Position numbers and translations under genes: made by a program. The notes under the pieces were generated by a model. It was given only the letters and a program-made list of their open reading frames with translations, was not told where the DNA came from and did not search any database. A DNA stretch of 64,000 nt from Hirudinaria manillensis (taxonomy: Eukaryota > Annelida > Clitellata > Hirudinida > Hirudinidae), in NCBI GenBank assembly GCA_034509925.1, contig CM067533.1, forward strand, positions 947,001-1,011,000, written 5' to 3'. This document shows positions 13,216 through 52,699 of the stretch, piece by piece (position 1 is the first letter of the stretch; each line of letters begins with the position of its first letter).

Positions 13216-13908
13216 ATATTTAAAATAATATTAACATTAGGATAATTTATAATGTTATACACTTTATAAATCACATTAGTTGTCCTATTAACATTGGTTA
13301 TCGATGAAATTGCAGATTTCAACTGGTAATAGCAGCACTTCTTAAAGGTCAATATCAACTTCGTCATTTCAAGTACCATGAATAAAATAATAATGCAAAT
13401 GCTTAGCAATAATAAAACTTAAGATTAATGTCGGTCACCAGGTATAATTAATGACTATAAATTAAATTTCAACGTTATTGAGCACAATTTGAGTCCAAGC
13501 AAAGAAAGTGTTTGTGAAAACTTAAACGATTGTATTTTAAAGACAAATATAATTTCATTTCAAATAGTTTTCAGATATTAGAGGTTTAAATGGAAAATCC
13601 GCAGAAACTAATTCTATAGACTTATACGAGTGAACCAAAAACTTTTTCCAAACAATTTATGTTAACCAATAATTGTTATCTATTCCAATTTTAAAAAATT
13701 TATCAAGCTTCTCAGTATTTTATATTAAGGAAAGAAATATTTGATAAATGACAAAAAATGGTTCAATCATTTCATCAACGAAGTTTATTGTATATCGTGA
13801 CAAAGTAGTTCTAATAATAATTCCTTCAATCAGTTTTAAGAATTTTGGGGATAATTTGAAAAACCGCAGAATTAATTTCGAATGAGTCAAAAACGATTTT
13901 CAAGTAAA

Positions 13909-16843
13909 TTACCTCATCCAATCATCACCATATCTACTTGCTTTTGTATTAACAGCTAAAAATATTTTCTCCTCCACCACCTCAAAGAAAATATGAAAAA
14001 TATTTTTAAAATTAATTTAAATAATAAGACTTTGCCAAAATTGGCTCATCAAATCCCAGTATAGAATATTTGGTTTGGGACTCATTTGGACCATAATTAA
14101 AGTTAATAAGTAAATATAAATATTTAATGAAACGATGAAAATAAATTATTATTATCACAATCCCTATTTGCATTAAAATTAATTTTACAATAAAACATCC
14201 AAATTTCACACCTCATCTATTTTTTCTCCTTTAAGCAACTTTGTTAAATCCTCCATTAAATATTCGTATCTTTTTGGTAATATCAAAAATGGACTGAAGA
14301 AATATTTCGTTTGAGAATAACATGTTAAATTGTAAAATAAAAAAAAAACATTGTTCAGACCATTGTTTAATCAAAATCTCGATCAACCAAGGGATTTTGC
14401 CCCTTCTCGATGCTTCAGTTGTAGCAGCTCTGAGGTACTTGTTTATTTTACAATAATGAGTTCTAAATAAATCGGCATCGTAGTCAATAAAATCGCCCGG
14501 TGTCTGAAATGAAACACAAGTGAATCACCATGTTACAATAAAGTTAACTTTGTTTACGAATCTACCTGGAGGAGTTCTTGGCAAAGCGTGCAAGCTGTGT
14601 GCATTATGTTAATTAAAATCAGAACTTTGACAAAACTATCAAAGAAAAGATATTTTTCTATCGAAAAATCGTGACTATCCTTATCGCCATCAACAGAGTT
14701 ATTTGGACAGTCGTATTTAAGATGGACGTTTGAATCATTGTAAACCTGCTCTCTGTCACATTCCAGATATGGTTCGACATCGCAACCAAACAGTTCCTCC
14801 ATTTTTCTCAGTTCGTCATCTGAATAAACCGTGCCCTTAAATGGATAAAGTTATAAATTATAACGTTATGTAGTAATATTTTTATATGTTAATCATTTAC
14901 ATTGCAGAAATTGTTGTGAGTATAGGTCTAGGGATAATATAATAACAAATTAACTAATGTGGTTAACTTACATCCAAAACATTACGGAAAATTTTGTCGA
15001 ATGCTGAAAAAAAATCAAAAACACTCCTTCCCATGACAGTTTCAGTCTCTCGTTCACAAATAATCTCAACTGTATTTCCAGGTTTTTCCATATTCTTTTA
15101 ACAAATATATTTAATTTTATCAAATATAAGATAACTTCAAAATTAACTTTATCGTTTAGTTACTCAAGTGCCTAGTAACTTCACTAATACAATTAAATTT
15201 CATTGATTTGGAATGCGAAAACATTAAGTCGATGGGTTTAGATTATTGCATGGCTTCATTTTTAGCAATCATTCAATAGCAGAATCAAATACAATTCGTT
15301 GCCAAATATTGTTCGAAACAATTTATGCGACACATATAATCCATTTCCGTTAAAAATAAACAAAGTTAAAAATATTTCTAATTATTACGCCGCGATATCC
15401 TCCCACAAGAAAGTCTTTTATCCTTTTCTTCTTCTCTTCATCATTGGTTGCAGACATGAAGAACGAGTAAAGGTGATCACTTGTAATTTGATATAGAAAA
15501 TGTCCCCATTTTATACGATTTATGTATCTTATACCGCACTGTTCAATATGCAACATAATAAAAAGTTTTATGATTAAGCATTGCATTTTAACGAAATGGT
15601 AATATGTAATTATAATAATTCAAAATGTTGAATTAACTTTCAGAAAATTAATTTTCAAGCATATTCTAACCTCTGGATCACTGTCATTCATATCAATCCA
15701 TTTCTGACTATATATTTTCTCACTATATATTGATACATCAAGGTGTATTGTTTCAATTATGGAAGATGCTGTAAATAAAAAATATTGTTTATCTTGGAAG
15801 ATAAAATCTTTTGATTATTTTAAAAGTATCAATTCAAATTTCATACAATTCAAATCTATTTTATATATACTATATCATGAAGTATACATCATAATTTAAT
15901 ATTTTATAAGATATAATATGATTAGTGATTCACTTTGTTTCACAATCCAGTCTGCGATACGCCTTTGTTCGGGATTTTTTCCTTGAGGAATTTTTGGCAA
16001 GTACGTCAACACCCAATATATCTCTGCAACAAATATCCATTGAATATATAAATAGACTAAATATTATTTTATAAATATTATGTACTAAATATTATAATAT
16101 TTAAATACACTTATTGCAATGTTTAACAATATATATATATATATATATATATGTATTACCTGTATCATATGCTGGAATTGTGTCCAACGAAGAACTCCTT
16201 TCTCTGCCAAGAGCAGCCTTAAATATCTTCAAGCAGAAGCAGATTCTTCTTATATTTGTTGGTCCTAATAATTGTCTAATGCATCTGATAAATTTTTAAA
16301 AAGTGTCAATATTATTAATTATTAATATTAGAAATGAATGATTGGATATTTTATAATTTTATTTATAACTTTCTTACCCCGGAAAGTATCCTTTACAATC
16401 CTCAACAGTTTTATCTTTTGCCGTTTGCATCACCTGGAGAAATGTGTTTTCCAAAATCCGACACGGTAATGTTGTATAATATGTTATCTTCGAAATTAAA
16501 AATATTTTAATTTAGTTTTGACGAAGGCAATTGTTAGCTGAATAATTTACCCTAATTAACATTAATCACAATATATAATATCTTGTCATTATTCAATTGA
16601 AAAAATTTATTATTTTAAACTATTTACGTAATAATATCTCAACCAACAAACCATATCTAAGCTAATAAGATAGTAGCAGTCGACACATTTCGTTAGGATT
16701 TTACTTGTGTTTTTTAAAGAGACACCTTTCGAAATAAAATTAATCGTATTAAATTCTACAAAGTACTAAATAGAATTAAAATAATAAACACTGACCTGAT
16801 ATGTCTTCTCCATGTAAGTTATCATTTTTATATAAAATATCAT
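13909..16843 (-). CDS. Array gene A1, unknown family, intact
   Basis: Eleven exons, minus strand: 16796-16843, 16378-16487, 16160-16284, 15934-16023, 15671-15768, 15389-15538, 14972-15094, 14566-14835, 14361-14503, 14212-14293, 13909-13980. Total 1311 nt, all phases consistent, TAA stop: 436 residues. The start is the first ATG after an in-frame TAG; a second in-frame ATG (MEKTYQ) lies 30 bases on. Exon 2 frame is supported because A/B differences fall largely at third positions. Recognisable segments: RILENTFLQV (exon 2), RRICFCLKIFK (3), YWVLTYLPKIPQGKNP (4), FFMSATNDEEKKKR (6), SDDELRKMEELFGCD (8), MHTACTLCQELLQ (8), YEYLMEDLTKLLKGEK (10), VVEEKIFLAVNT (11). No signal peptide and no clear membrane span; moderately Cys-rich. 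No family recognised, so no function given. Confidence 0.8.
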
Positions 16844-18785
16844 CTATCTCAACACTGGAGTTATCTGTCAATTTTGGCAAAGTGTCGCTAAAGCATTGGA
16901 ATTTTTCGTTATTATAATGAATAATTTATTGTATTATATATATTATTGTTTAATATATTATATAAAAATTATTACATTGATTTTGTTACCTACGAACTTA
17001 TAATTATAATTGCAACTAGAAGTTATGGACTACATATTGATTATTCAACAACCTCAAATATTTGGAAATTTGCAGGAACAGTTTCATACTGTTTTCTGAA
17101 AGCTAATAATTTTTGTTATAATATTTATTTATGCACAATAATTATCGGATTTGTAATATAAATAATTCTATTTATAGCAACGGCAACGAAAATTATTCAA
17201 ACTTTTCCATTTTCTTTATATTCTTCTCTCAATGTTTTCAGTTCCTTAAGCATTCCCATACCTAAAAGTTCCAACATGTTTTTTTGTTTATATTTGTTCG
17301 ATATTTCTTGAAATAATTTATAAATGTTATTATAGATAATTTTCAATTTTCTCCATTATTGGAAATTTAATCTTACTAATCGATCTTTTGATTCTTATAA
17401 TGTCAAGATTTATATCTGAGATTTTCTTTCTGAGTTACAATCACAATTATTTCATTTGATTTGGACTATAACAATACAAAGATAGGAACTCAATTTTCTA
17501 TACAATTTTAAAATTTATTAACCAATTTTTAAAATTCTTGAATTCTTTTATTATAGGTTATTGATAAATTTTTGAAATATAAGCGATTCTATGAAATAAT
17601 AAATCTCAGATGGAGAAAGTAAATCACCATTGTCATTAGCAAAGGAAAAAGAGTTGCTTCTAGTGCTAGAATGATATCCTATTAGAGATTTAATAACATC
17701 CCAAGTTTTGTGCATACTGGATTTATGTTTGATAAAGAGCTTGTCATGATATATCTTTTTAGCAGCTAATTTACATTTCCTGACAGTGTTACTGAAGTTA
17801 ATGATAGCCTGTTTATTTTTATCTGTGTGGTATTAAAGGAAAGTTCTAAATAATTTGTTCTCTGCATTGGAAGACTTCAGCAAGGATATATTCATCCAAG
17901 TTGTTTGAAATTTCTGATTGGCCTATGTTGGTCGGGCACTAGAGGAAAGGCTTCATTGTACACACTTAAGTAAATAGAAATAAATACTTTCATAACAATT
18001 CATTCATACAATGACTTAACACACGAGACCAATCATTGTCACTTAAACTAAGTGCATTTTGAAACTTATTTTTAGAATGGTTGTTAATTTGTCTATATTT
18101 CTTATGCTTTGTATTTGCCCGATCACATTTTATAGGAATCTATAGAAATATGGGAAAATAATCTGCGATATCTGCTATCAGGAATTTAGTTAAGCAATTG
18201 TGGAGAGGTTAGTATCAACTTCGTCATTTGTTGATCGCCAATTTCAGTACCATGAATACAATAATAATGCAAATGTTTAGCAATAATAAAACTTAAGATT
18301 AATGTCGGTCACCATATATAATTAATGACTATAAATTAAATTTCAACGTTATTGAACACAATTTGAGTCCAAGCAAAGAAAGTGTTTGTGAAATCTTAAA
18401 CAATTGTATTTTAAAGACAAATATAATTTCATTTCAAATAGTTTCAGATATTAGAGGTTTAAATGGAAAATCCGCAGAAACTAATTCTATAGACTTATAC
18501 GAGTGAACCAACAACTTTTTCCAAACAATTTATGTTGACCAATAATTTTTATCTATTCCAATTTTAAAAAATTTATCAAGCTTCTCAGTATTTTACATTA
18601 AGGAATAGAAATATTTGATAAATGACAAAAAAAATGGTTCAATCATTTCATCAACGAAGTTTATTGTATATCGTGACAAAGTGGTTCTAATATTAATTCC
18701 TTCAATCAGTTTTAAGAATTTTGGGGATAATTTGAAAAAGCCGCAGAATTAATTTCGAATGAGTCAAATACGCTTTTCAAGTAAA
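16844..18785. other. A1-B2 spacer with conserved upstream blocks
   Basis: Upstream of A1 three short blocks are conserved in all units: 16844-16885; about 17055-17105 (contains ATGAAACTGTTCCTGC on the minus strand); and 17203-17277, a 25-codon minus-strand frame beginning with ATG and containing GMGMLKELKTL, same length in A and B. They may be 5'UTR exons, upstream ORFs or an alternative first exon; I could not join them in phase to exon 1. The rest holds a LINE fragment (17585-18190) and the B2 3' flank. Confidence 0.55.
17585..18190 (-). mobile_element. LINE fragment in A1-B2 spacer
   Basis: The minus strand encodes pieces typical of the region between endonuclease and reverse transcriptase in CR1/jockey-like non-LTR elements: NRANTKHKKYRQINN, then KLAAKKIYHDKLFIKHKSSM and KTWDVIKSLIGYHS. 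Frame breaks lie between the pieces, so it is decayed. Near-identical copies lie after A3 and A5, so it was part of the ancestral A-B dyad. Confidence 0.7.
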
Positions 18786-21700
18786 TTACCTTATCCAATC
18801 ATCATAACTATCTGCATGTGTATTAACAGCTAAAAATATTTTCTCCTCCACCACCTCAAAGAAAATATAAAAAATATTTTTAAAATTAATTTAAATAATA
18901 AGACTTTGCCAAAATTGGCTCATCAAATCCCAGTATAGAATATTTGGCTTGGGACACATTTGGACCATAATTAAACTAAATAAGTAAATATAAATAATTA
19001 ATGAAACTATGAAAATGAATTATTATTATCCCAATCCCTATTTGCATTAAAATTAATATTACAATAAAACATCCAAATTTCACACCTCATCTACTTTTTC
19101 TCCTTTAAGCAACTTTGTTAAATCCTCCATTAAATATTCGTATCTTTTTGGTAATATCAAAAACGGACTGAAGAAATATTTCGTTTGAGAATAACATGTT
19201 AAATTGTAACATAAAAAAAAATATTGTTCAGACCATTGTTTAATCAATATCTCGATCAACCAAGGGATTTTGCCCCTTCTCGATGCTTCGGTTGTAGCAG
19301 CTCTGAGGTACTTGTTTATTTTACGATGATGAGTTCTAAATAACTCGGCATCGTAGTCAATAAAATCGCCAGGCGTCTGAAATGAAACACAAGTGAATCA
19401 CCACGTTACAATAAACTTAACTTTGTTTATGAATCTACCTGGAGTAGTTCTTGGCAAAGCGTGCAAGCTGTGTGCATTATGTTAATTAAATTCAGAACTT
19501 TGACAAAACTATCAAAGAAAAGATATTTTTCGATCGAAAATTCGTGACTATCCTTATCGCCATCTTCAGAGTTATTTGGACAGTCGCATTTAAGATGGAC
19601 GTTTGAATCATTGTAAACCTGCTCTCTGTCACATTCCAGATATGGTTCGACATCGCAACCAAACAGTTCCTCCATTTTTCTCAGTTCGTCATCTGAATAA
19701 ACCTTGCCCTTAAATTGTTAAAGTGTTAAATTATAACGTTATGTAGTAATATTTTTAAATGTTAATCATTTGCTTTTCAGAAATCGTTGTGAGTAAAGGT
19801 CTAGGGATAATATAATTACAAATTAATTAAGGAGTGGCCGTGTGGTTAACCTACATCCAAAATAACTTCGAAGATATCGTTGAATGTTGAAAGAAAATCA
19901 CAAATACTCCTATGCATGACCGTGGCAGTATTCGGATCACAACTCATAATCTTAATCTCTTCTCCCATACGTTTTACATCGTCTAGATCCTTTAACGGAT
20001 AAAATTAATTTTGAAAAATGGAATACTATTTAATTTTGATAAATGTAAAAGAATTTCGAAGTTATATTGATCTGTTAATGAATTACATAATAACTAATAC
20101 AATTCAATTTGTTTGGTTTCGAAATCGAAAACATTCAATCGAGGGACCAACATTCCTGCATAACTTCATTCCACAACGGAATCAAATACAATTGGTTCCA
20201 TTGTTATTTGAAATACGAGTTCATAATATAAATATGCTATAAATAAGCCACTGAGTAAAAATCTTTCTATAAATAATTTTTAAAATATTACTCTGCATGA
20301 TTGACCCATAAGATAATCTTCCATTCGTTTCATCTTCTCTTCATCATTGGTTGCAGACATGAAGAACGTGTGAAGAAGGTCACAAGTAACATGATATACT
20401 TTTGGTGCGTAACGTATACGATTAGCGTATCTGATATCGTACTGTTCAATAAGCAAAATAATAACATGAAAATTAAAGAAATACGTTCCACAACGTAAAG
20501 GTAATATTAGTTTGTAATAATTGACTAATGTTGAATCAATTTTTCAACAAATTATTTTAAAGGCATATTCTAACCTCTGGATCGCTGTTATACATTTTAA
20601 TCAAATTCCGAGTTTTCTCAGTGTATATTGATTCATCGAGGTGGAATGCTTCAATTATGGAAGATGCTGTAAATCAGAAATATTTTTTATATTTGAAGAT
20701 GGAACATTTTAGGTTATTTCAAGAATATCGATTCGTATTTCATGCAATTCCAATCTGTTTGATATACTTCATACAAAGAAGTATAAATCATAGTTTAATA
20801 TTTTATACGACATGGTAAGTGTAATATGTATACATATAACATGTACAAGAAGATACATTGAAATCAGTGATTTACTTTGTTTCACAATCCAGTCTGTGAT
20901 ACGCCTTTGTACGGGATTTTTTCCTTGTGGGATATTTGGCAAGTACGTCAACACCCAATAATATGCATCTACAATAAATACACAATGTATTTATAATTAA
21001 TAATCTTAAATATTTTAATATTCAAATAGTATTTTTTAGTAATTAACATTTTACATTTTTTAACTTTAAATATTTCATATTTACATATTAAATAAACGAT
21101 CGTAAGTAAGCCCCCCAAAAAAGCGAGGCAAGTCGGTCCCATGTTTTTTTTTTCATGAGTATCCCAATATTCTGAAGCCATGTTATTTTTTTGTCGGAAA
21201 GTTGCGCGCGATAGAAAGAACATTAATGTAGCGTTTCTGGAAGAGGCGAGCTCGATCGCCGGATGCGCCCCATCTACGAGAGCCTATCAGGATTCAGGGC
21301 TTTGGAGGGGGCAAATCCATTGAATGTCTCTACCAGAAGGCTTGTTAGAGCGTTTCAATCAATATTATATATATATTACCACTATCGCAGTAAGGAACTC
21401 CGTCCATCAAGACATTCCTGTGTCTGCCAAGAGCAGTCTTAAGTATCTTCAAACAGAAGCAAATTCTGCTCGTATTTGTTGGATTTAATAATTCTCTTAT
21501 GCACCTGATAGATATAAATATTCTTATTTAATATTACTATTAATGTTAAATGAAGGTCTGAAAAGTTATGATTTTTACGTCCGAATGGAATATTCATATT
21601 TCTTAATAAGTTTATTTTTCGCCATCTGTATAACTTGGAGAAATGTGTTTTCCAAAATTCGACACGGTGGTGTTGCATAATTTCTCATCTTTAAAATGAA

Positions 21701-22038
21701 ATTTTTGTAAACTTTAAATAAGAAAATTTTTAAATTTATTTTAACCTAATTCATAATAATCACAATTTATAATACTTTGCCATTATTAAATTAAAAAGTC
21801 TATTATTTTAAACTATTTACTTAATAATATGTAAACCAACAAACCAAATCTAAGCTAATACGATAGTGGCATCCGACACATTTCATTAGATTTTCACTTG
21901 TGATTTTTAAAGAGACACCTTTCGAAATAAAATACATCGTATTATCAATTCTACAAAGAACTAAATAGAATCAAAATAACAAACACTGACCTGATATGTC
22001 TTCTCCATGTAAGTTATCATTTTTATATAAAATATCAT
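18786..22038 (-). CDS. Array gene B2, unknown family, intact
   Basis: Eleven exons, minus strand: 21991-22038, 21579-21688, 21380-21504, 20876-20968, 20575-20666, 20292-20441, 19855-19989, 19439-19708, 19234-19376, 19086-19167, 18786-18854. Total 1317 nt, phases consistent, TAA stop: 438 residues. It differs from type A mainly in exons 2-7: exon 3 has RICFCLKILKTALGRHR, exon 5 is two codons shorter, exon 6 has YDIRYANRIRYAPKVYHV, exon 7 is 45 rather than 41 codons and almost unrelated (DLDDVKRMGEEIKIMS). Exons 8-11 are nearly identical to type A. Intron 9 (19168-19233) is 66 nt with no stop, so retaining it would leave the frame open. Intron 3 carries a GC-richer insertion shared by all B copies. 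Function unknown. Confidence 0.8.
21090..21365 (+). mobile_element. GC-richer retroelement-like insert in B2 intron 3
   Basis: A segment far richer in GC than its surroundings lies between exons 3 and 4. On the plus strand it reads ..STRAYQDSGLWRGQIH and, after a stop, MSLPEGLLERF. This aligns loosely with the segment at 57760-57830 (REFQGSG.., SPEAFFARKR). Both look like pieces of one element family; the inference rests on this short similarity. Copies occur in B4 and B6. Confidence 0.5.
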
Positions 22039-23553
22039 CTATCTCAAAAACGGAGTCATCTGACAATTTTGGCAAATTGTCGCTACAGCATTGGAATTTT
22101 GGACGTTTTTATAATTAATAATTAATTATATTATATATATTATTATTTATTATAATATAAAAATTTTTTATAATTGATTTTGTTAACTATGAACTTATAA
22201 TTATAATTGCAACTAGAAGTTATGAACTACATATTGATTATTCAACAACCTCAAATATTTGGATATTTGCAGGAATAGTTTCATACTGTTTTCTGAAAGC
22301 TAATAATTTTTGTTATAATATTTATTTATGCACAATAATTATCGGATATATACAATAATATATATTAATTTATATCAACAACAAGGAAAATTATTCCAAC
22401 TTTTCTTTTGCTTTCAATTTCTTTAAGCAATGTCTTCAGTTCCTTAAGCATTCCCATACCTGAAAGTTCTGTCATGGGTTTTTTTATTAAATTTGTTTGA
22501 TATTCTTGCAAATAGTTTATAAATGTTATTATAGATATCTTTCAATGTGCTCCATTACGTGAAAATTTAATCTTACTGAGCGAACTATCAATACTTTTCC
22601 TTTCAAGATTTATATCTAAGATTTTTTTATGAGCTATTATTAGTCAATTTAAGTGTTTTGGAGTATAACAAACCAAAGAACATGAACTCAATTTTACATA
22701 AAGTTTTATAAATTAATTAATCACTTTTTAAAATATTGGATTTCTACGTATATTTGATACAATCAAGCTTTATTGAAGAACGATTAGAAAGCTGTGTGTT
22801 TGGAGTATAATCTTTGAACATTTAAGTATCATTCAAATCATTTTGTAATAAAAATTGCATCTAAGGCTACGTTGCCCTTTTCGATGGTTTCGGAGTTTAT
22901 TCTCTGTTGATAAAGTTTATCCGCAAATCACAGAAGTCGTTAAGATTATACTATTGTTAGGTAATCATTAAATCTATTTTCAGTAATACGTCCTATATGA
23001 ATTACTTGCACGTCTTCATAATATGTTTGCAATTTTAATTTTTTTGTGACGTTTTTAACATAATAGCAAATATATATTTATTTACTTTGTTGTACTGGGC
23101 AATATTAAACTTTAATACAAAATTGTTAATCCTAACTTTGGTTAATGAATGTTTTAATCCTCGTATTACGAATTAATATTGGTCGTATTTTGATCAGAAT
23201 TCATGTATTATTATTGGTCATTAAACATGTCGATAAAATTTCAGATACAATTGCAGGAACGAAGTTTATTGTGAACCAAAATCTTTTTCCAAACAATTTA
23301 TGTTAACCAAAAATTGTTATCTATTCCAATTTTAAAAAATTTATCAAGCTTCTCAGTATTTTATATTAAGGAATAGAAATATTTGATAAATGACAAAAAA
23401 AATGGTTCAATCATTTCATCAAGGAAGTTTATTGTATATCGTGACAAAGTAGTTCTAATATTAATTCCTTCAATCAGTTTTAAGAAATTTGGGGATAATT
23501 TGAAAAAACCGCAGAATTAATTTCGAATGAGTCAAATACGCTTTTCAAGTAAA
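22039..23553. other. B2-A3 spacer
   Basis: Contains B-type versions of the conserved upstream blocks (including the ATG frame with GMGMLKELKTL near 22395-22470). Then comes AT-rich DNA unique to B-to-A spacers (about 22600-23250) and the A3 3' flank. At 23247-23255 it has the empty site (CAATTGCAGG) of the LINE 3'-end insertion found before A5 and A7. No gene seen. Confidence 0.6.
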
Positions 23554-26435
23554 TTACCTCATCCAATCATCACCATATCTATTTGCTTTTGTGTTAACAG
23601 CTAAAATTATTTTCTCCTCCACCACCTCAAAGAAAATATAAAATATATTTTTAAAATTAATTTAAATAATAAGACTTTGCCAAAAATGGCTCATTAAATC
23701 CCAGTATAGAATATTTGGCTTGGGACTCATTTGGACCATAATTAAACTTAATAAATAAATATAAATATTTAATGAAACGATGAAAATAAATTATTATTAT
23801 CACAATCCCTATTTGCATTAAAATTAATATTACAATAAAACATCCAAATTTCACACCTCATCTATTTTTTCTCCTTTAAGCAACTTTGTTAAATCCTCCA
23901 TTAAATATTCGTATCTTTTTGGTAATATCAAAAATGGACTGAAGAAATATTTCGTTTGAGAATAACATGTTAAATTGTAACATAAAAAAAAAATCATTGT
24001 TCAGACCATTGTTTAATCAAAATCTCGATCAACCAAGGGATTTTGCCCCTTCTCGATGCTTCAGTTGTAGCAGCTCTGAGGTACTTGTTTATTTTACAAT
24101 AATGAGTTCTAAATAAATGGGCATCGTAGTCAATAAAATCGCCAGGTGTCTGAAATAAAACACAAGTGAATTACCACGTTACAATAAACTTAACTTTGTT
24201 TATGAATCTACCTGGAGGAGTTCTTGGCAAAGCGTGCAAGCTGTGTGCATTATATTAATTAAAGTCAGAACTTTGACAAAACTATCAAAGAAAAGATATT
24301 TTTCGATCGAAAATTCGTGACTATCCTTATCGCCATCTTCAGAGTTATTTGGACAGTCGTATTTAAGATGGACGTTTGAATCATTGTAAACCTGCTCTCT
24401 GTCACTTTCCAGATATGGTTCGACATCGCAACCAAACAGTTCCTCCATTTTTCTCAGTTCGTCATCTGAATAAACCGTGCCCTTAAATGGATAAAGTTAT
24501 AAATTATAACGTTATGTAGTAATATTTTTATATGTTAATCATTTACATTGCAGAAATCGTTGTGAGTATAGGTCTAGGGATAATATAATTACATATTAAC
24601 TAATGTTGTTAACTTACATCCAAAATATCACGGAAAATTCTGTCGAATGATGAAAAAAAATCAAAAACACTCCTTCTCATGACAGTTTCAGTCTCTCGTT
24701 CACAAATAATCTCAACTGTATTTCCAGGTTTTTCCATATTCTTTTAACAAATATATTTAATTTTATCAAATATAAGATAACTTCAAAATTAACTTTATCG
24801 TTTAGTTACTCAAGTGCCTAGTAACTTCACTAATACAATTAAATTTCATTGACTTGGAATGCGAAAATATTAACTCGAGTGGTTTACATTCTTGCATGGC
24901 TTCATTTTAAACAATCATTCAATAGCAGAATCAAATACAATTCGTTGCCAAATATTGTTCGAAACAACTTATGCGACACATATAATCCATTGCCGTTAAA
25001 AATAAACAAATTTAAAAATATTTCTAATTATTACATCGCGATATCCTCCCACAAGAAAGTCTTTTATCCTTTTTTTCTTCTCTTCATCATTGGTTGCAGA
25101 CATGAAGAACGAGTAAAGGTGATCACTTGTAATTTGATATAGAAAATGTCCCCATTTTATACGATTTATGTATCTTATACCGCACTGTTCAATATGCAAC
25201 ATAATAAAAAGTTTTATGATTAAGCATTGCATTTTAACGAAATGGTATTATGTAATTATAATAATTCAAAATGTTGAATTTTCAGAAAATTAATTTACAA
25301 GCATATTCTAACCTCTGGATCACTGTCATTCATATTAATCCATTTCTGACTATATATTTTCTCACTATATATTGATACATCAAGGTGTATTGTTTCAATT
25401 ATGGAAGATGCTGTAAGTAATAAAATATTATTTATCTTGGAAGATAAAATTTTTTTGATTATTTTAAAAGTATCAATTCAAATCTATTTTGTATATACTA
25501 AACTATAATATGATTAGTGATTTACTTTGTTTCACAATCCAGTCTGCGATACGCCTTTGTTCGGGATTTTTTCCTTGTGGGATATTTGGCAAGTACATCA
25601 AAACCCAATATATCGCTGCAACAAATACCAAGTGAATATATAAATAGACTAAATATTATTTTATAAATATTATGTACCAAATATTATAATTTTAAATGCA
25701 CTTATTGCCATGTTTAAGAAATGGATATATATATATAAGTATGTATTACCTGTATCATCTGCTGGAATTGTGTCCAACGAAGAACTCCTTTCTCTGCCAA
25801 GAGCAGCCTTAAATATCTTCAAGCAGAAGCAGATTCTTCTTATATTTGTTGGTCCTAATAATTGTCTAATGCATCTGATAAATTTTAAAAAAGTGTCAAT
25901 ATTATTAATTATTAATATTAGAAATGAATGATTATATATATCATAATTTTATTTATAACTTTCTTACCCCGGAAAGTATCCTTTACAATCCTCAACAATT
26001 TTATCTTTTGCCGTTTGCATCACCTGGAGAAATGTGTTTTCCAAAATCCGACACGGTAATGTTGTATAATATGTTATCTTCGAAATTAAAAATATTTTAA
26101 TTTAGTTTTGACGAAGGCAATTGTTAGCTGAATAATTTACCCTAATTAACATTAATCACAATATATAACATTTTGTCATTATTCAATTGAAAAAATTTAT
26201 TATTTTAAACTATTTACGTAATAATATCTCAACCAACAAACCATATCTAAGCTAATAAGATAGTAGCAGTCGACACATTTCGTCAGGTTTTTACTTGTGA
26301 TTTTAAAAGAGACACCTTTCGAAATAAAATTAATCGTATTATAAATTCTACAAAGTACTAAATAGAATTAAAATAACAAACACTGACCTGATATGTCTTC
26401 TCCATGTAAGTTATCAGTTTTATATAAAATATCAT
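23554..26435 (-). CDS. Array gene A3, unknown family, intact
   Basis: Eleven exons, minus strand: 26388-26435, 25968-26077, 25750-25874, 25526-25615, 25313-25410, 25035-25184, 24618-24740, 24212-24481, 24007-24149, 23857-23938, 23554-23625. Exon lengths equal those of A1 and the frame is open throughout: 436 residues. The second ATG of A1's exon 1 is CTG here; the first (26435) and third (26405) remain. Differences from A1 are mostly substitutions, for example YRD for YRG at the end of exon 6. Function unknown. Confidence 0.8.
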
Positions 26436-27109
26436 CTATCTCAAAAATGGAGTCATCTGACAATTTTGGCATATTGTCGCTGAAACATTGGAATTGTACG
26501 TTATTATAATTGATTTTGTAAACTATGAATTTATAATTATAATTGCAACGAGAAGTTATGGACTACATATTGAATATTCAACAACCTCAAATATTTGGAT
26601 ATTTGCAGGAACAGTTTCATACTGTTTTCTGAAAGCTAATAATTTTTGTTATAATATTTATTTATGCACAATAATTATCGGATTTGTAATATAAATAAGT
26701 CTATTTATAGCAACGGCAACGAAAATTATTCAAACTTTTCCATTTTCTTTATATTCTTCTCTCAATGTTTTCAGTTCCTTAAGCATTCCCATACCTAAAA
26801 GTTCCAACATGTTTTTTGTTTATATTTGTTCGATATTTCTTGAAATAATTTTAAAATGTTATTATAGATAATTTTCAATTTTCTCCATTCTTGGAAATTT
26901 AATCTTACTTATCGAACTTTTGTTGGTTATGATGTCTAGATTTATATCTGAGATTTTCTTTCTGAGTTACAATCACAATTATTTCATTTAATTTGGACTA
27001 TAACAATACAAAGATAGGAACTCAATTTTCCATAAAAATTTTAAAATTTATTAACCAATTTTTAAAATTCTTGAATTCTTTTATTACGTGCTGTTGATAA
27101 ATTTTTGAA

Positions 27110-27740: not shown

Positions 27741-27790
27741 GTTAGTATCAACTTCGTCATTTGTTGCTCGCCAATTTAAGTTCCATGAAT

Positions 27791-27795
27791 AAAAT
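27791..27795. repeat. Target-site duplication, left copy
   Basis: AAAAT directly precedes the left LTR at 27796. The same five bases follow the right LTR at 32177-32181. A 5-bp duplication is usual for Ty3/gypsy integrases. Confidence 0.93.
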
Positions 27796-27903
27796 TGTTA
27801 AGTCTTTAGAAACGAAACAAACTTCAAACTTCGAAAGAACCAACACGCTCCAAACTATCGTTCGACAACATCCGGCCCCGCCTCCTCGCACATCGTCACA
27901 ACA
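27796..27903 (-). repeat. 3' LTR of the Ty3/gypsy element
   Basis: 108 bp, identical to 32069-32176. In element orientation it begins TGTTGTGACG and ends ACTTAACA. The gag-pol stop codon lies in its first bases (27896-27898). Confidence 0.95.
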
Positions 27904-32020: not shown

Positions 32021-32068
32021 TTTGGAAACTAAACAAATTTTGAACTTTCTTTTGTCGACTGCGCCAGT

Positions 32069-32176
32069 TGTTAAGTCTTTAGAAACGAAACAAACTTCAA
32101 ACTTCGAAAGAACCAACACGCTCCAAACTATCGTTCGACAACATCCGGCCCCGCCTCCTCGCACATCGTCACAACA
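32069..32176 (-). repeat. 5' LTR of the Ty3/gypsy element
   Basis: 108 bp, identical to the other LTR; it would carry the promoter of the element. Followed by the AAAAT target duplication at 32177-32181. Confidence 0.95.
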
Positions 32177-35600: not shown

Positions 35601-35952
35601 TAATTTCTCATCTTTAAAATTAAATTTTTGTAAACTTTAAGTAAGAAAATTTTTAAATATATTTTAACCTAATTCATAATAATCACAATACTTTGCCATT
35701 ATTAAATTAAAAAGTGTATTATTTTAAACTATTTACTTAATAATATGTAAACCAACAAACCAAATCTAAGCTAATACGATAGTGGCATCCGACACATTTC
35801 ATTAGGTTTTCACTCGTGATTTTAAAAGAGACACCTTTCGAAATAAAATTAATCTTATTAAATTCTACAAAGAACTAAATAGAATTAAAATAACAAACTC
35901 TGACCTGATATGTCTTCTCCATATAAGTTATCAGTTTTATATAAAATATCAT
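32698..35952 (-). CDS. Array gene B4, unknown family, intact
   Basis: Eleven exons, minus strand: 35905-35952, 35502-35611, 35303-35427, 34799-34891, 34498-34589, 34216-34365, 33766-33900, 33350-33619, 33145-33287, 32998-33079, 32698-32766. Lengths equal B2 and the frame is open: 438 residues. Exon 7 differs from B2 by a clustered change (IGDIFSTF for ICDFLSTF). Intron 9 is 65 nt with a TGA just after the donor, so unlike B2 it cannot be read through. Function unknown. Confidence 0.78.
35013..35290 (+). mobile_element. GC-richer retroelement-like insert in B4 intron 3
   Basis: Same insert as in B2 intron 3 with a few substitutions. Confidence 0.5.
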
Positions 35953-40855: not shown

Positions 40856-41529
40856 CTATCTCAAAAATGGAGTCATCTGACAATTTTGGCATATTGTCGC
40901 TGAAACGTTGGAATTGTACGTTATTATAATTGATTTTGTAAACTATGAATTTATAATTATAATTGCAACGAGAAGTTATGGACTACATATTGATTATTCA
41001 ACAACCTCAAATATTTGGATATTTGCAGGAATAGTTTCATACTGTTTTCTGAAAGCTAATAATTTTTGTTATAATATTTATTTATGCAGAATAATTATCG
41101 GATTTGTAATATAAATAATTCTATTTATAGCAACGGCAACGAAAATTATTCAAACTTTTCCATTTTCTTTATATTCTTCTCTCAATGTTTTCAGTTCCTT
41201 AAGCATTCCCATACCTAAAAGTTCCAACATGTTTTTTGTTTATATTTGTTCGATATTTCTTGAAATAATTTTAAAATGTTATTATAGATAATTTTCAATT
41301 TTCTCCATTCTTGGAAATTTAATCTTACTAATCGATCTTTTGATTCTTATAATGTCAAGATTTATATCTGAGATTTTCTTTCTGAGTTACAATCACAATT
41401 ATTTCATTTGATTTGGACTATAACAATACAAAGATAGGAACTCAATTTTCTATACAATTTTAAAATTTATTAACCAATTTTTAAAATTCTTGAATTCTTT
41501 TATTATAGGTTATTGATAAATTTTTGAAA

Positions 41530-42140: not shown

Positions 42141-42736
42141 GTTAAGCAATTGTGGAGAGGTTAGTATCAACTTCGTCATTTGTTGATCCCCAATTTCAGT
42201 ACCATGAATACAATAATAATGCAAATGTTTAGCAATAATAAAACTTAAGATTAATGTCGGTCACCATATATAATTAATGACTATAAATTAAATTTCAACG
42301 TTATTGAACACAATTTGAGTCCAAGCAAAGAAAGTGATTGTGAAATCTTAAACAATTGTATTTTAAAGACAAATATAATTTCATTTCAAATAGTTTCAGA
42401 TATTAGAGGTTTAAATGGAAAATCCGCAGAAACTAATTCTATAGACTTATACGAGTGAACCAACAACTTTTTCCAAACAATTTATGTTGACCAATAATTG
42501 TTATCTATTCCAATTTTAAAAAATTTATCAAGCTTCTCAGTATTTTACATTAAGGAATAGAAATATTTGATAAATGACAAAAAATGGTTCAATCATTTCA
42601 TCAACAAAGTTTATTGTGACAAAGCGACAAAGCAGTTCTAATATTAATTCCTTCAATCAGTTTTAAGAATTTTGGGGATAATTTGAAAAAGCCGCAGAAT
42701 TAATTTCGAATGAGTCAAATACGCTTTTCAAGTAAA

Positions 42737-45700
42737 TTACCTTATCCAATCATCATAACTATCTGCATGTGTATTAACAGCTAAAAATATTTTCTCCTCC
42801 ACCACCTCAAAGAAAATATAAAAAATATTTTTAAAATTAATTTAAATAATAAGACTTTGCCAAAATTGGCTCATCAAATCCCAGTATAGAATATTTGGCT
42901 TGGGACACATTTGGACCATAATTAAACTTAATAAGTAAATATAAATAATTAATGAAACTATGAAAATGAATTATTATTATCCCAATCCCTATTTGCATTA
43001 AAATTAATATTACAATAAAACATCCAAATTTCACACCTCATCTACTTTTTCTCCTTTAAGCAACTTTGTTAAATCCTCCATTAAATATTCGTATCTTTTT
43101 GGTAATATCAAAAACGGACTGAAGAAATATTTCGTTTGAGAATAACATGTTAAATTGTAACATAAAAAAAAATATTGTTCAGACCATTGTTTAATCAATA
43201 TCTCGATCAACCAAGGGATTTTGCCCCTTCTCGATGCTACGGTTGTAGCAGCTCTGAGGTACTTGTTTATTTTTAGATATGGAGTTCTAAATAACTCGGC
43301 ATCGTAGTCAATAAAATCGCCAGGCGTCTGAAATGAAACACAAGTGAATCACCACGTTACAATAAACTTAACTTTGTTTATGAATCTACCTGGAGTAGTT
43401 CTTGGCAAAGCGTGCAAGCTGTGTGCATTATGTTAATTAAATTCAGAACTTTGACAAAACTATCAAAGAAAAGATATTTTTCGATCGAAAATTCGTGACT
43501 ATCCTTATCGCCATCTTCAGAGTTATTTGGACAGTCGCATTTAAGATGGACGTTTGAATCATTGTAAACCTGCTCTCTGTCACATTCCAGATATGGTTCG
43601 ACATCGCAACCAAACAGTTCCTCCATTTTTCTCAGTTCGTCATCTGAATAAACCTTGCCCTTAAATTGTTAAAGTGTTAAATTATAACGTTATGTAGTAA
43701 TATTTTTAAATGTTAATCATTTGCTTTTCAGAAATCGTTGTGAGTAAAGGTCTAGGGATAATATAATTACAAATTAATTAAGGAGTGGCCGTGTGGTTAA
43801 CCTACATCCAAAATAACTTCGAAGATATCGTTGAATGTTGAAAGAAAATCACAAATACTCCTATGCATGACCGTGGCAGTATTCGGATCACAACTCATAA
43901 TCTTAATCTCTTCTCCCATACGTTTTACATCGTCTAGATCCTTTAACGGATAAAATTAATTTTGAAAAATGGAATACTATTTAATTTTGATAAATGTAAA
44001 AGAATTTCGAAGTTATATTGATCTGTTAATGAATTACATAATAACTAATACAATTCAATTTGTTTGGTTTCGAAATCGAAAACATTCAATCGAGGGACCA
44101 ACATTCCTGCATAACTTCATTCCACAACGGAATCAAATACAATTGGTTCCATTGTTATTTGAAATACGAGTTCATAATATAAATATGCTATAAATAAGCC
44201 ACTGAGTAAAAATCTTTCTATAAATAATTTTTAAAATATTAATCTGCATGATTTACCCATAAGATAATCTTCCATTCGTTTTCATCTTCTCTTCATCATT
44301 GGTTGCAGACATGAAGAACGTGTGAAGAAGGTCACAAGTAACATGATATACTTTTGGTGCGTAACGTATACGATTAGCGTATCTGATATCGTACTGTTCA
44401 ATAAGCAAAATAATAACATGAAAATTAAAGAAATACGTTCCACAACGTAAAGGTAATATTAGTTTGTAATAATTGACTAATGTTGAATCAATTTTTCAAC
44501 AAATTATTTTAAAGGCATATTCTAACCTCTGGATCGCTGTTATACATTTTAATCAAATTCCGAGTTTTCTCAGTGTATATTGATTCATCGAGGTGGAATG
44601 CTTCAATTATGGAAGATGCTGTAAATCAGAAATATTTTTTATATTTGAAGATGGAACTTTTTAGGTTATTTCAAGAATATCGATTCGTATTTCATGCAAT
44701 TCCAATCTGTTTGATATACTTCATACAAAGAAGTATAAATCATAGTTTAATATTTTATACGACATGGTAAGTGTAATATGTATACATATAACATGTACAA
44801 GAAGATACATTGAAATCAGTGATTTACTTTGTTTCACAATCCAGTCTGTGATACGCCTTTGTACGGGATTTTTTCCTTGTGGGATATTTGGCAAGTACGT
44901 CAACACCCAATAATATGCATCTACAATAAATACACAATGTATTTATAATTAATAATCTTAAATATTTTAATATTCAAATAGTATTTTTTAGTAATTAACA
45001 TTTTACATTTTTTAACTTTAAATATTTCATATTTACATATTAAATAAACGATCGTAAGTAAGCCTCCAAAAAAAGCGAGGCAAGTCGGTCCCAGGTTTTT
45101 TTTTTCATGAGTATCCCAATATTCTGAGGCCATGTTATTTTTTTGTCGGAAAGTTGCGCGCGATAGAAAGAACATTAATGTAGCGTTTCTGGAAGAGGCG
45201 AGCTCGATCACCGGATGCGCCCCATCTACGAGAGCCTATCAGGATTCAGGGCTTTGGAGGGGGCAAATCCATCGAATGTCTCTATCAGAAGGCTTGTTAG
45301 AGCGTTTCAATCAATATTATATATATATTACCACTATCGCAGTAAGGAACTCCGTCCAACAAGACATTCCTGTGTCTGCCAAGAGCAGTCTTAAGTATCT
45401 TCAAACAGAAGCAAATTCTGCTCGTATTTGTTGGATTTAATAATTCTCTTATGCACCTGATAAATATAAATATTCTTATTTAATATTACTATTAATGTTA
45501 AATGAAGGTTTGAAAACTTATGATTTTTACGTCCGAATGGAATATTCATATTTCTTAATAAGTTTATTTTTCGCCATCTGTATAACTTGGAGAAATGTGT
45601 TTTCCAAAATTCGACACGGTGGTGTTGCATAATTTCTCATCTTTAAAATGAAAATTTTGTCAACATTAAGTAAAAAAAATTTTTAAATATATTTTAACCT

Positions 45701-45991
45701 AATTCATAATAATCACAATTTATAATACTTTGCCATTATTAAATTAAAAAGTCTATTATTTTAAACTATTTACTTAATAATATGTAAACCAACAAACCAA
45801 ATCTAAGCTAATACGATAGTGGCATCCGACACATTTCATTAGATTTTTACTCGTGATTTTTAAAGAGACACCTTTCGAAATAAAATACATCGTATTATCA
45901 ATTCTACAAAGAACTAAATAGAATCAAAATAACAAACACTGACCTGATATGTCTTCTCCATGTAAGTTATCATTTTTATATAAAATATCAT
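42737..45991 (-). pseudogene. Array gene B6, frameshift and lost splice donor in exon 6
   Basis: Exons by homology, minus strand: 45944-45991, 45531-45640, 45332-45456, 44828-44920, 44527-44618, 44243-44393, 43806-43940, 43390-43659, 43185-43327, 43037-43118, 42737-42805. Exon 6 has one extra T near 44279-44282 (CGTTTTCATC against CGTTTCATC in B2 and B4). This shifts the frame into a TAA. The exon 6 donor, GTAATA in B2 and B4, is TTAATA here (44241-44242). Two independent lesions in one exon make this a likely true pseudogene. Otherwise it is nearly identical to B2, including the open 66-nt intron 9. Confidence 0.85.
45047..45310 (+). mobile_element. GC-richer retroelement-like insert in B6 intron 3
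   Basis: Third copy of the insert found in B2 and B4. Here the frame on the plus strand stays open longer (45132-45440) because a TGA present in the other copies is CGA. It still reads through exon 3 antisense and is not a gene. Confidence 0.5.
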
Positions 45992-47958
45992 CTATCTCAA
46001 AAACGGAGTCATCTGACAATTTTGGCAAATTGTCGCTAAAGCATTGGAATTTTGGACGTTTTTATAATTAATAATTAATTATATTATATATATTATTATT
46101 TATTATAATATAAAAATTTTTATAATTGATTTTGTTAACTATGAACTTATAATTATAATTGCAACTAGAAGTTATGAACTACATATTGGTTATTCAACAA
46201 CCTCAAATATTTGGAAATTTGCAGGAATAGTTTCATACTGTTTTCTGAAAGCTAATAATTTTTGTTATAATATTTATTTATGCACAATAATTATCTTATA
46301 TATATAATAATAAATATTAATTTATATCAACTACAAGTAAAATTATTCCAACTTTTCTTTTGCTTTCAATTTCTTTAAGCAATGTCTTCAGTTCCTTAAG
46401 CATTCCCATACCTGAAAGTTCTGACATAGTTTTTTATTACATTCGTTCGATATTCTTGCAAATAGTTTATAAATGTTATTATAGATATCTTTCAATGTGC
46501 TCCATTACGTGAAAATTTAATCTTACTGAGCGAACTATCAATACTTTTCCTTTCAAGATTTATATCTAAGATTTTTTTATAAGTTATAATTACAGTCAGT
46601 TTATGTGTTTTGGAGTATAACAAACCAAAGAATATAAACTCAGAATATGAACATAAAGTTATATAAATTAATTAATCACTTTTTAAAATATTGGATTTCT
46701 ACGTATATTTGATACAATCAAGCTTTATTGAAGAACGGTTAGAAAGCTGTGTGTTTGGAGTATAATCTTTGAACATTTAAGTATCATTCAAATCATTTTG
46801 TAATAAAAATTGCATCTAAGGCTATGTTGCCCTTTTCGATGGTTTCGGAGTTTATTCTCTGTTGATAAAGTTTATCCGCAAATCACAGAGGTCGTTAAGA
46901 TTATACTATTGTTAGGTAATCATTAAATCTATTTTCAGTAATACGTCATATATGCATTACTTGCACGTTTTCATAAGATGTTTGCAATTTTAATTTATTT
47001 GTGACGTAAAAACATAATAGCAAATATATATTTATTTACTTTGTTGTACTGGGCAATATTAAACTTTAATACAAAATTGTTAATCCTAACTTTGGTTAAT
47101 GAATGTTTTAATCCTCGTATTACGAATTAATATTGGTCGTATTTTGATCAGAATTCATGTATTATTATTGGTCATTAAACATGTCGATAGAATTTCAGTT
47201 ACAATAATCGTTTATTGTTATACTGATAGATTAAAAATTTTGAAACTGCCCTCCCTGGTGTACAGACGAAAAAGGGCTGATTTGATATTGATGTTCAATA
47301 TCATCAGAGGAACTGCACCAGAATTCCTATGCCCTAGGCTTATGTTTTGCCCAGAGGAGAGAACGAGGGGCCATGATTGGAAACTATCAACAAACATTGC
47401 TCACAGGGATTTGAGGAAGTTTTTTTTCAGCAATAGAGTTGTCCAAGAGTGGAATGATCTTCCTCGGTCGGTTGTCGGTGCTCCAAACCTGGACATCTTC
47501 AAAATGTTATTGGATGATTTTTTTGGGGATTGTAAATATTTGATGTGACTGGTTGTTTTATTGTTTGTTTGATATGTAGAGGGTTTTGCTTTTTGTTTAC
47601 TTAAGTAATTTGTGTTAGGCGAGGGGTTCGCCCGTGCCTTTATGTGATAATAATAATTGCAGGAACGAAGTTTATTGTGAACCAAAAACTTTTTCCAAAC
47701 AATTTATGTTAACCAATAATTGTTATCTATTCCAATTTTAAAAAATTTATCAAGCTTCTCAGTATTTTACATTAAGGAATAGAAATATTTGATAAATGAC
47801 AAAAAAAATGGTTCAATCATTTCATCAAGGAAGTTTATTGTATATCGTGACAAAGTAGTTCTAATAATAATTCCTTCAATCAGTTTTAAGAATTTTGGGG
47901 ATAATTTGAAAAACCGCAGAATTAATTTCGAATGAGTCAAAAACGATTTTCAAGTAAA
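45992..47958. other. B6-A7 spacer
   Basis: Same structure as the B4-A5 spacer, including a LINE 3'-end insertion (47206-47657) at the identical site. No host gene seen. Confidence 0.6.
47206..47657 (+). mobile_element. 5'-truncated LINE 3' end before A7
   Basis: Nearly identical to 37167-37618, differing by one residue in the coding part (Leu to Phe in the KFFLSNR segment). Same insertion site and ends, so it is one insertion copied by segmental duplication. Confidence 0.85.
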
Positions 47959-50854
47959 TTACCTTATCCAATCATCACCATAGCTATTTGCTTTTGTGTT
48001 AACAGCTAAAAATATTTTCTCCTCCACCACCTGAAAGAAAATATGAAAAATATTTTTAAAATTAATTTAAATAATAAGACTGCCAAAAATGGCTCATTAA
48101 ATCCCAGTATAGAATATTTGGCTTGGGACTCATTTGGACCATAATTAAAGTTAATAAGTAAATATAAATAATTAATGAAACTATGAAAATGAATTATTAT
48201 TATCCCAATCCCTATTTGCATTGAAATTAATATTACAATAAAACATCCAAATTTCACACCTCATCTATTTTTTCTCCTTTAAGCAACTTTGTTAAATCCT
48301 CCATTAAATATTCGTATCTTTTTGGTAATATCAAAAATGGACTGAAGAAATATTTCGTTTGAGAATAACATGTTAAATAGTAACATAAAAAAAAATCATT
48401 GTTCAGACCATTGTTTAATCAAAATCTCGATCAACCAAGGGATTTTGCCCCTTCTCGATGCTTCGGTTGTAGCAGCTCTGAGGTACTTGTTTATTTTACG
48501 ATGATGAGTTCTAAATAAATGGGCATCGTAGTCAATAAAATCGCCAGGTGTCTGAAATGAAACACAAGTGAATCACCATGTTACAATAAAGTTAACTTTG
48601 TTTACGAATCTACCTGGAGGAGTTCTTGGCAAAGCGTGCAAGCTGTGTGCATTATGTTAATTAAATTCAGAACTTTGACAAAACTATCAAAGAAAAGATA
48701 TTTTTCTATCGAAAAATCGTGAGTATCCTTAACGCCATCATCAGTGTTATTTGGACAGTCGTATTTAAGATGGACGTTTGAATCATTGTAAACCTGCTCT
48801 CTGTCACATTCCAGATATGGTTCGACATCGCAACCAAACAGTTCCTCCATTTTTCTCAGTTCGTCATCTGAATAAACCGTGCCCTTAAATGGATAAAGTT
48901 ATAAATTATAACGTTATGTATTATTCTCTTTATATAATCATTTACATTGCAGAAATCGTTGTGAGTGAAGGTCTATGGATAATATAATTACAAATTAACT
49001 AATGTTGTTAACTTACATCCAAAATATCACGGAAAATTCTGTCGAATGATGAAAAAAAATCAAAAACACTCCTTCTCATGACAGTTTCAGTCTCTCGTTC
49101 ACAAATAATCTCAACTGTATTTCCAGGTTTTTCCATATTCTTTTAACAAATATATTTAATTTTATCAAATATAAGATAACTTCAAAATTAACTTTATCGT
49201 TTAGTTACTCAAGCGCCTAGTAACTTCACTAATACAATTTAATTTCATTGACTTGGAATGCGAAAACATTAAGTCGATGGGTTTAGATTATTGCATGGCT
49301 TCATTTTAAACAATCATTCAATAGCAGAATCAAATACAATTCGTTGCCAAATATTGTTTGAAACAATTTATGCGACACATATAATCCATTGCCGTTAAAA
49401 ATAAACAAAGTTAAAAATATTTCTAAATATTACACGGCGATATCCTCCCACAAGAAAGTCTTTTATCCTTTTCTTCTTCTCTTCATCATTGGTTGCAGAC
49501 ATGAAGAACGAGTAAAGGTGATCACTTGTAATTTGATATAGAAAATGTCCCCATGTTATACGATTTATGTATCTTATACCGCACTGTTCAATATGCAACA
49601 TAATGAAAGGTTTTATGATTAAGCATTGCATTTTAACGAAATGGTAATATGTATTTATAATAATTCAAAATGTTGAATTAACTTTCATAAAATTAATTTA
49701 CAAGCATATTCTAACCTCTGGATCACTGTCATATATATTAATCCATTTCTGACTATATATTTTCTCACTATATATTGATACATCAAGGTGTATTGTTTCA
49801 ATTATGGAAGATGCTGTAAGTAATAAAATATTATTTATCTTGGAAGATAAAATTTTTTTGATTATTTTAAAAGTATCAATTCAAATTTCATGCAATTCAA
49901 ATCTATTTTGTATATACTATACTATAATATGATTAGTGATTTACTTTGTTTCACAATCCAGTCTGCGATACGCCTTTGTTCGGGATTTTTTCCTTGTGGG
50001 ATATTTGGCAAGTACGTCAAAACCCAATATATCGCTGCAACAAATACCAAGTGAATATATAAATAGACTAAATATTATTTTATAAATATTATGTACCAAA
50101 TATTATAATTTTAAATGCACTCATTGCCATGTTTAAGAAATGGATATATATATATAAGTATATATTACCTGTATCATCTGCTGGAATTGTGTCCAACGAA
50201 GAACTCCTTTCTCTGCCAAGAGCAGCCTTAAATATCTTCAAGCAGAAGCAGATTCTTCTTATATTTGTTGGTCCTAATAATTGTCTAATGCATCTGATAA
50301 ATTTTAAAAAAGTGTCAATATTATTAATTATTAATATTAGAAATGAATGATTATATATATCATAATTTTATTTATAACTTTCTTACCCCGGAAAGTATCC
50401 TTTACAATCCTCAACAATTTTATCTTTTGCCGTTTGCATCACCTGGAGAAATGTGTTTTCCAAAATCCGACACGGTAATGTTGTATAATATGTTATCTTC
50501 GAAATTAAAAATATTTTAATTTAGTTTTGACGAAGGCAATTGTTAGCTGAATAATTTACCCTAATTAACATTAATCACAATATATAACATTTTGTCATTA
50601 TTCAATTGAAAAAATTTATTATTTTAAACTATTTACGTAATAATATCTTAACCAACAAACCATATCTAAGCTAATAAGATAGTAGCAGTCGACACATTTC
50701 GTCAGGTTTTTACTTGTGATTTTAAAAGAGACACCTTTCGAAATAAAATTAATCGTATTATAAATTCTACAAAGTACTAAATAGAATTAAAATAACAAAC
50801 ACTGACCTGATATGTCTTCTCCATGTAAGTTATCAGTTTTATATAAAATATCAT
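47959..50854 (-). CDS. Array gene A7, unknown family, intact
   Basis: Eleven exons, minus strand: 50807-50854, 50387-50496, 50169-50293, 49945-50034, 49716-49813, 49434-49583, 49017-49139, 48614-48883, 48409-48551, 48260-48341, 47959-48030. Open throughout: 436 residues. The 3' half (exons 6-11) is almost identical to A5. The 5' part from exon 5 upward follows A3, for example GTAAGTAATAAAAT just before exon 5 and SSAG where A1 and A5 have SYAG on the complementary strand. The exon 11 acceptor is TTTCAG here and in A5, stronger than TTTGAG elsewhere. Function unknown. Confidence 0.8.
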
Positions 50855-52699
50855 CTATCTCAAAAATGGAGTCATCTGACAATTTTGGCATATTGTCGCT
50901 GAAACGTTGGAATTGTACGTTATTATAATTGATTTTGTAAACTATGAATTTATAATTATAATTGCAACGAGAAGTTATGGACTACATATTGAATATTCAA
51001 CAACCTCAAATATTTGGATATTTGCAGGAATAGTTTCATACTGTTTTCTGAAAGCTAATAATTTTTGTTATAATATTTATTTATGCAGAATAATTATCGG
51101 ATTTGTAATATAAATAATTCTATTTATAGCAACGGCAACGAAAATTATTCAAACTTTTCCATTTTCTTTATATTCTTCTCTCAATGTTTTCAGTTCCTTA
51201 AGTATTCCCATACCTAAAAGTTCCAACATGTTTTTTGTTTATATTTGTTCGATATTTCTTGAAATAATTTATAAATGTTATTATAGATAATTTTCAATTT
51301 TCTCCATTATTGGAAATTTAATCTTACTAATCGATCTTTTGATGCTTATGATGCTTATAATGTCAAGAGATTTTCTTTCTGGGTTACAATCACAATTATT
51401 TCATTTAATTTGGACTACAACAATACAAAGATATGAACTCAATTTTCTATAAAATTTTTATTATTTATTAACCAATTCTTAAAATTCTTGAATTCTTTTA
51501 TTACACGCTGTTGATGGATTTTTTAAATATACGCGATTGCTTGAACCAATAAATCTCTCATGGATTAGATGTAGTAGGTAATTCTATCTACCCAACACCT
51601 TATGCACTCAGTTCTAATGTTCGTTGTGGCAATACAAACTCCTACCGATTGATAAAATGCCAACCCAACGAATTTCAAAATATCGAGTCGTTTCTCAACG
51701 ATTGTCATCAAACATGGAAGCATTGTCATGACCTGAGTTGGCATTTGCAGCAGATAATTAAGTTTTGTAAATACCGGAAGAGGCGACAGTTCAGAGTTCA
51801 GAGGATCAAAGTTCAATTGTTTGATTGCGCCCTTTGCCCTTGATATGAATTTCCATGTTTAGAAGTGTATCATATATTCCCCTGCACATAAATCTGTCCC
51901 CACTAGTTATCTTTTTTTTTTTGGTACAAGGTCAAGCCACAGGTACCATGTGTTGTTCAGTTTATAAAGGGATTTCAGTAGATTCATCATTACAAACACG
52001 TTGTTTTCAATGCGTTCAATGGAGCTTCAATCACTGTGTAATACTTTGCTAATATTATCCGCAAAGTTACCTGTAGTGTACCAGATAAAGAAACCTCTCA
52101 AACAATTCACTATTCCATATGTAAGCATCAGTGCCAATTTCAAGGTTTAGAAGGACAGCGAAAATCGACTTAACGAATGTCAGACCAACGATTTCAGAAC
52201 AGAGTGGAATTTAAAGGGACCACTATGAACTGTCTACGAGCTGTTCACGATTAATATAACCAATGTAATTTTTGTTGATTATTTTCTATGCAAGCTCCAA
52301 TGTTGTAATAAGGCATTGATGGTTTGATCGGTGCGCGTTCAAAAATATTTTGTATTCAACTGTTTTTATTATTAAATTAATTATATTAAATTGCGACAGG
52401 GTGGTAGAACTTCCACAAATATTCCAGAGTTATCTGACAATTGAGCATATCGTAGCCATTTGCGTCATTCCAAAAAGAATGGTTTAGTGGATTAACATTA
52501 TGTTAAAAAGGCTTTAATAAAGGGAACGTCGACGGTGAAGTTATGAGAAATCAGTATTTGGCCCGGCGTTTCACAAACATTATCTGCGATCTTCTAATTT
52601 TGAAATGTAACAATTACAGATATAATATGCAAGTTTTAAATATAAGAAATTCCAGGATATTCAGCAAGACATGTGAAAGTAATCAAGCAACGGAAAATT
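50855..52699. other. Right edge of the array and unassigned DNA
   Basis: A-type upstream blocks continue to about 51300. Similarity to the other A units fades by 51560, and the LINE fragment seen after A1, A3 and A5 is absent. From 51560 to 52699 there are two overlapping short open frames (51565-51816 minus, 51649-51843 plus) of unknown meaning and no recognisable gene. Confidence 0.55.

Follow-up and report, generated by a model that had tools for sequence, protein, structure and literature searches.

Introduction

Expansions of NOD-like receptor genes in invertebrates, a sponge among them, are large lineage-specific tandem families that evolve by birth and death. The gene family described here, from the leech Hirudinaria manillensis, resembles them in its tandem clusters, dispersed groups, dead copies and combination of fast-evolving and conserved parts, but it differs in that Pfam searches found neither an NLR nor an F-box domain in it, nor any other. 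Tandem expansion is also known in leeches themselves. According to the available part of its description, GLB3 is present in seven or eight tandem copies in blood-feeding leeches, including H. manillensis (PMC10087013). As far as this part of the source goes, our array is similar to GLB3 in being a tandem expansion of comparable copy number in a leech; however, the protein is different, and the array family has no globin match in Pfam. The available text of a second report states that the antithrombotic genes of H. manillensis form multi-gene families (PMC10671345). The array likewise belongs to a clustered multi-gene family of the same species. In contrast, the antithrombotic families were named, in that text, by homology to known leech factors, and the array family has neither a named relative nor a signal-like N-terminus by hydropathy.

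Organization of the array and the gene model

We analysed a stretch of 64,000 nucleotides of the H. manillensis genome (the window). Comparison of the window with itself confirmed the seven-copy tandem array in minus orientation proposed in the first-pass annotation: seven gene copies, all on the minus strand, occupy approximately positions 13,346-51,564 (Table 1). The copies are arranged head to tail in the order A1, B1, A2, B2, A3, B3, A4, and thus represent two alternating types. Across the aligned unit, the four A copies are identical to each other at 0.92-0.98, and the three B copies at 0.97-0.98. The self-comparison shows the A+B pair, some 9.6 kb long, repeated at about 97% identity, so the array appears to have expanded mainly through duplication of the pair. 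Outside the window, at C8:933.6-941.5 kb, there are one A-type and one B-type copy in the opposite orientation; the model of this B-type copy starts only at exon 7.

The gene model was derived from splice signals and checked with a spliced protein-to-DNA aligner, and its 5' end was corrected from paralogues. The first two exons are based on spliced alignments and on corresponding exons that precede several paralogues located on other contigs. Instead of the eleven exons and 436-438 codons initially predicted, the corrected model contains 14 coding exons, with 517 codons in type A and 519 in type B. The exon structure is indeed shared among the copies, as had been claimed: the splice sites of 13 introns are aligned throughout the array, the acceptor AG is found at all 13 sites in all seven copies, and the set of donor GTs is complete (13 of 13) in six copies, with 12 of 13 in B3. 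The count of five open copies out of seven also held, now over 517-519 codons. The start codon of the A and B genes is uncertain. The first ATG is present in six of the seven copies (B2 has ACG at that site), and codon 7 is an in-frame ATG in every copy. An additional 5' exon is possible, because several paralogues appear to carry one. Two copies, A3 and B3, are damaged. The single-base frameshift of A3 is either a true lesion or an assembly error; B3, in which the frameshift lies beside the lost splice donor, is clearly broken. Exon 6 is followed in B1 by an intron (20969-21379) some 280 bases longer than its counterpart in A4 (411 versus 134 bases), and similar 104-aa frames are found in this intron in all three B copies (B1, B2, B3).

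Table 1. Gene copies of the array, the retrotransposon inserted between them and intronless relatives elsewhere in the genome
Feature	Position	Strand	Description
Copy A1	13909..17277	-	14 coding exons, 517 aa, open
Copy B1	18786..22475	-	14 coding exons, 519 aa, open
Copy A2	23554..26810	-	14 coding exons, 517 aa, open
Ty3/gypsy-type retrotransposon	27795..32176	-	between A2 and B2 (copies 3 and 4); reverse transcriptase, RNase H and integrase by Pfam, in one long frame
Copy B2	32698..36387	-	open over 519 codons; ACG in place of the first ATG, in-frame ATG at codon 7
Copy A3	37920..41230	-	one-base frameshift in the T-run of exon 10
Copy B3	42737..46427	-	broken: frameshift in exon 9 and loss of the exon 9 donor
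Copy A4	47959..51229	-	14 coding exons, 517 aa, open
Intronless relative	L039:1459-2886		one open frame, 475 codons
Intronless relative	L040:1570-3273		one open frame, 567 codons

Members of the family elsewhere in the genome

The genome (148,429,096 bases in 23 contigs) was searched with B1, an intronless protein from contig C9 and an intronless protein from contig C10, which gave 124, 91 and 25 matches, respectively. To count sites, we used only the rows spanning the long central exon (47 of the 124 and 67 of the 91, entered by hand) and merged overlaps. It turned out that the family occupies at least 92 sites spread over 11 contigs; C6 carries 29 of them, and the array accounts for seven. 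This count is a lower bound in which not every site is a whole gene and the weakest retained row has an E-value of 0.019. The third genome search revealed two extra sites with E < 1e-5, on C5 and C13. Within this large family, the array represents a young branch. The first-pass annotation had described an undescribed family of protein-coding genes. Its coding nature and the lack of a credible known match were upheld; the array, however, is a small part of the whole.

Twenty regions were fetched, of which two contain intronless members and 18 were modelled. There are three intronless members, one on C9 and two on C10, the C10 pair being 98% identical. The relatives L039 and L040 are about 23% identical to each other and are possibly old retrocopies. 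Introns were compared with those of B1 in 15 of the 18 modelled loci, three being dropped as cut or partial (L051, L056, L057); the 15 models include the A-type copy adjoining the window (L050) and one poor model (L043). In 167 of the 194 comparisons, the intron had the same phase as in B1 and lay within 6 residues of its position there, a tally made without a shuffled control from an aligner informed by GT-AG, the protein and a rough splice score alone. Six introns are common to all 15 paralogues. The remaining 27 comparisons were unmatched, 19 introns of the models lie elsewhere, and a stop is present in four of the 15 models. In the alignment of 11 members, the paralogues share 22-51% protein identity with B1, and 19 columns are invariant, including a CPF motif near the C-terminus.

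Divergence of the two types and selection

Using the exon numbers of the 14-exon model, we compared types A and B within the array by segments, introns included. The identity was 0.89-0.94 for exons 2-4, 0.72-0.73 for exons 5-10 and 0.95-0.96 for exons 11-14. In exons 5, 6, 9 and 10, the identity of B1 to the A copies (0.66-0.74) is much like that of the adjoining introns (0.64-0.78, one 0.87). Exons 7 and 8 (0.91-0.92 and 0.83-0.84) are better preserved than the introns adjoining them. Such a mosaic would fit gene conversion of the ends, or else a chimeric origin, with the middle coming from another paralogue. Similar ends around a diverged middle lead to predictions on gene conversion and on diversifying selection that can be tested. 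Of the two causes of expansion initially suggested, dosage and diversity, the mosaic leans to diversity. If dosage were the cause, extra copies would be retained to make more of the same protein, and the divergence of A and B would be incidental. This agrees with the high identity of copies of the same type and with a dN/dS of 0.25 (NG86) between B1 and B2. However, two types alternate in the array with 0.72 identity in the middle, and the sites elsewhere fall into many diverged groups whose proteins are far from B1. We therefore regard dosage as possible but doubtful.

Pairwise comparison (NG86) of A with B gave a dN/dS of 0.63-0.77. The excess of differences at third codon positions, reported earlier for exon 2, does not extend to the whole coding sequence, in which the A-B differences are spread across codon positions (72/61/80 at first/second/third positions for B1 versus A1). 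By the same method, the A copies compared among themselves have a dN/dS of 0.6-0.9. Against the paralogue on C4, the values were 0.30 for B1 and 0.36 for A4 (NG86), with 0.13 for the last two exons alone, all of them rough because dS is greater than 1. For the other paralogues, NG86 gave 0.40 for L048 versus L053, about 0.56 for L049 and L052 versus L054, and near or above 1 for the young pairs L041-L055 and L053-L058; some pairs on C6 and C8 are also near or above 1. Thus, constraint is evident in deep comparisons, whereas young copies show little or none of it. The protein-coding constraint proposed in the first-pass annotation is accordingly weak when judged from the window, and it is the C4 paralogue and the conserved exon structure that argue for it.

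Values near 1 in young pairs also fit relaxed constraint. It could be that the whole array is relaxed or dying and consists of drifting duplicates with little function, as the A-B and A-A values and the damage to A3 and B3 would allow. Yet five copies have remained open over their full length with all splice sites present, and B1 and B2 differ with a low dN/dS, which makes this explanation quite unlikely. Exon 10 ranks with the fastest blocks in several of the cleanly modelled pairs; in C6 pairs, the first exons tie with it or exceed it. It is the hardest exon to model, and we do not claim positive selection there from pairwise values.

Searches for known relatives

Searches of Pfam, NCBIfam and PDB with single members, a profile of the whole family and profiles of its parts revealed no credible relative by sequence; they were run with the earlier model of 497/495 aa, which contains little of the final first exon. 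The matches were weak and not common between members, except for Ribosomal_L27e, found in two of 11 members with a best E-value of 0.12. The lowest E-value, 0.0033, belonged to the NADH-quinone oxidoreductase model NF004505 in one of eleven members and was taken as chance. PDB entry 9fa0 (E 0.024, whole-family profile) and APP1_cat (E 0.032, one member) were stray matches. The CPFLILPK motif resembles a stretch that, we assume, precedes HECT domains; the idea of a HECT ubiquitin ligase was dropped, because none of the 11 members matched HECT in Pfam. No published description of such a family is among the matches listed, in the parts of the literature available.

We also considered whether the protein derives from a mobile element or a virus and has spread as such. 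The family is multi-copy and dispersed, three of its members are intronless, and retrotransposons lie close by. On the other hand, the genes have 13 introns at mostly matching positions. Among the 11 members scanned with Pfam there was no transposase, integrase or reverse-transcriptase domain, and of 29 pattern matches to viral contigs, none was confirmed by tblastn. Mobile or viral origin is thus very unlikely.

Properties of the proteins

The hydropathy of the proteins was calculated from models that lack the final first exon. The two proteins of the window, A and B, contain no strongly hydrophobic stretch (the maximum 19-residue mean is 1.26), which suggests that they are probably soluble and unsecreted. 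On the same scale, stretches of some paralogues reach 1.75, some of them in doubtful models, and these paralogues may have membrane segments. Read by eye from the sequence, the fold is probably mostly helical.

A secreted salivary factor multiplied for blood feeding would be in keeping with a blood-feeding leech that has multi-gene antithrombotic families, as the available part of PMC10671345 describes. However, the N-terminus of the window proteins shows no signal-like stretch in these models, as judged by hydropathy and not by a dedicated predictor. In addition, the antithrombotic names used in PMC10671345 presumably fit other proteins, which also counts against a salivary factor. We consider this origin hardly credible.

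Proposed explanation

Taken as a whole, function included, we find it likely that the array arose when host genes of a large leech family, one not filed before, were amplified locally. The A+B pair would have been duplicated locally by unequal crossing-over. The ends may have been homogenised by gene conversion, or one type may have acquired its middle from a different paralogue. A scaffold common to the family could be formed by the conserved C-terminal part, and the parts that diverge fast would contact variable partners. The family would then evolve by birth and death and act as a set of cytosolic recognition or adaptor proteins, of the kind seen in innate immunity or reproduction. It resembles families that profit from diversity, such as those of immune or reproductive recognition, in its tandem clusters, its damaged copies, its mosaic divergence and its combination of fast parts with a conserved C-terminus. 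The functional step taken alone, a cytosolic recognition or adaptor family with turnover driven by diversity, is tentative. Still bolder, and in our opinion unlikely, would be a new kind of expanded cytosolic recognition system of leeches, with a helical scaffold, a conserved C-terminal part, fast middle exons and about 90 or more genes shuffled by gene conversion, that plays a role of the NLR type. Against the proposed explanation we counted the dN/dS near 1 in young pairs, the two damaged copies, the unmatched introns (27/194), the 19 introns at other places, the four models with a stop, the more hydrophobic stretches of some paralogues and the by-eye reading of the helices.

About 90 or more sites that have no credible relative in Pfam, NCBIfam or PDB represent a sizeable uncharted share of the leech gene set. 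The number of genes in H. manillensis is given as 18,106 in the available part of PMC10087013, and as 21,828 or 25,331, depending on the method, in that of PMC10671345.

Neighbouring elements and genes

The Ty3/gypsy element within the array is bounded by two terminal direct repeats of 109 bp. The repeats are identical, which suggests a recent insertion. AAAA flanks the element on both sides and may be the target duplication, though it is of low complexity. LINE-type frames with endonuclease and reverse-transcriptase domains are located on the plus strand at 52766-56388. Between the copies, LINE-like fragments at 17580-18000, 37051-37509 and 47090-47548 were, as read by eye, duplicated along with the array. 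The window also contains a partial suppressor-of-forked (CSTF3-like) gene with HAT repeats on the plus strand (3414-4283) and a homeobox gene on the minus strand (9982-11045). The latter is NK2-like by eye and has an intron within the homeodomain; its Pfam match covers the last 19 residues of the domain. Elsewhere in the genome, COX1 was found on C23, which we read as the mitochondrial contig. It is 73% identical to an annelid-like consensus, in keeping with an annelid; a sponge is not supported (64% to a demosponge-like consensus), nor is a tunicate, as a GH6 search with an uninformative control gave no match. A full-length second COX1 copy with an equal score lies at G000:C9:3026416-3027747 and reflects either recent transfer of mitochondrial DNA to the nucleus or a mis-join.
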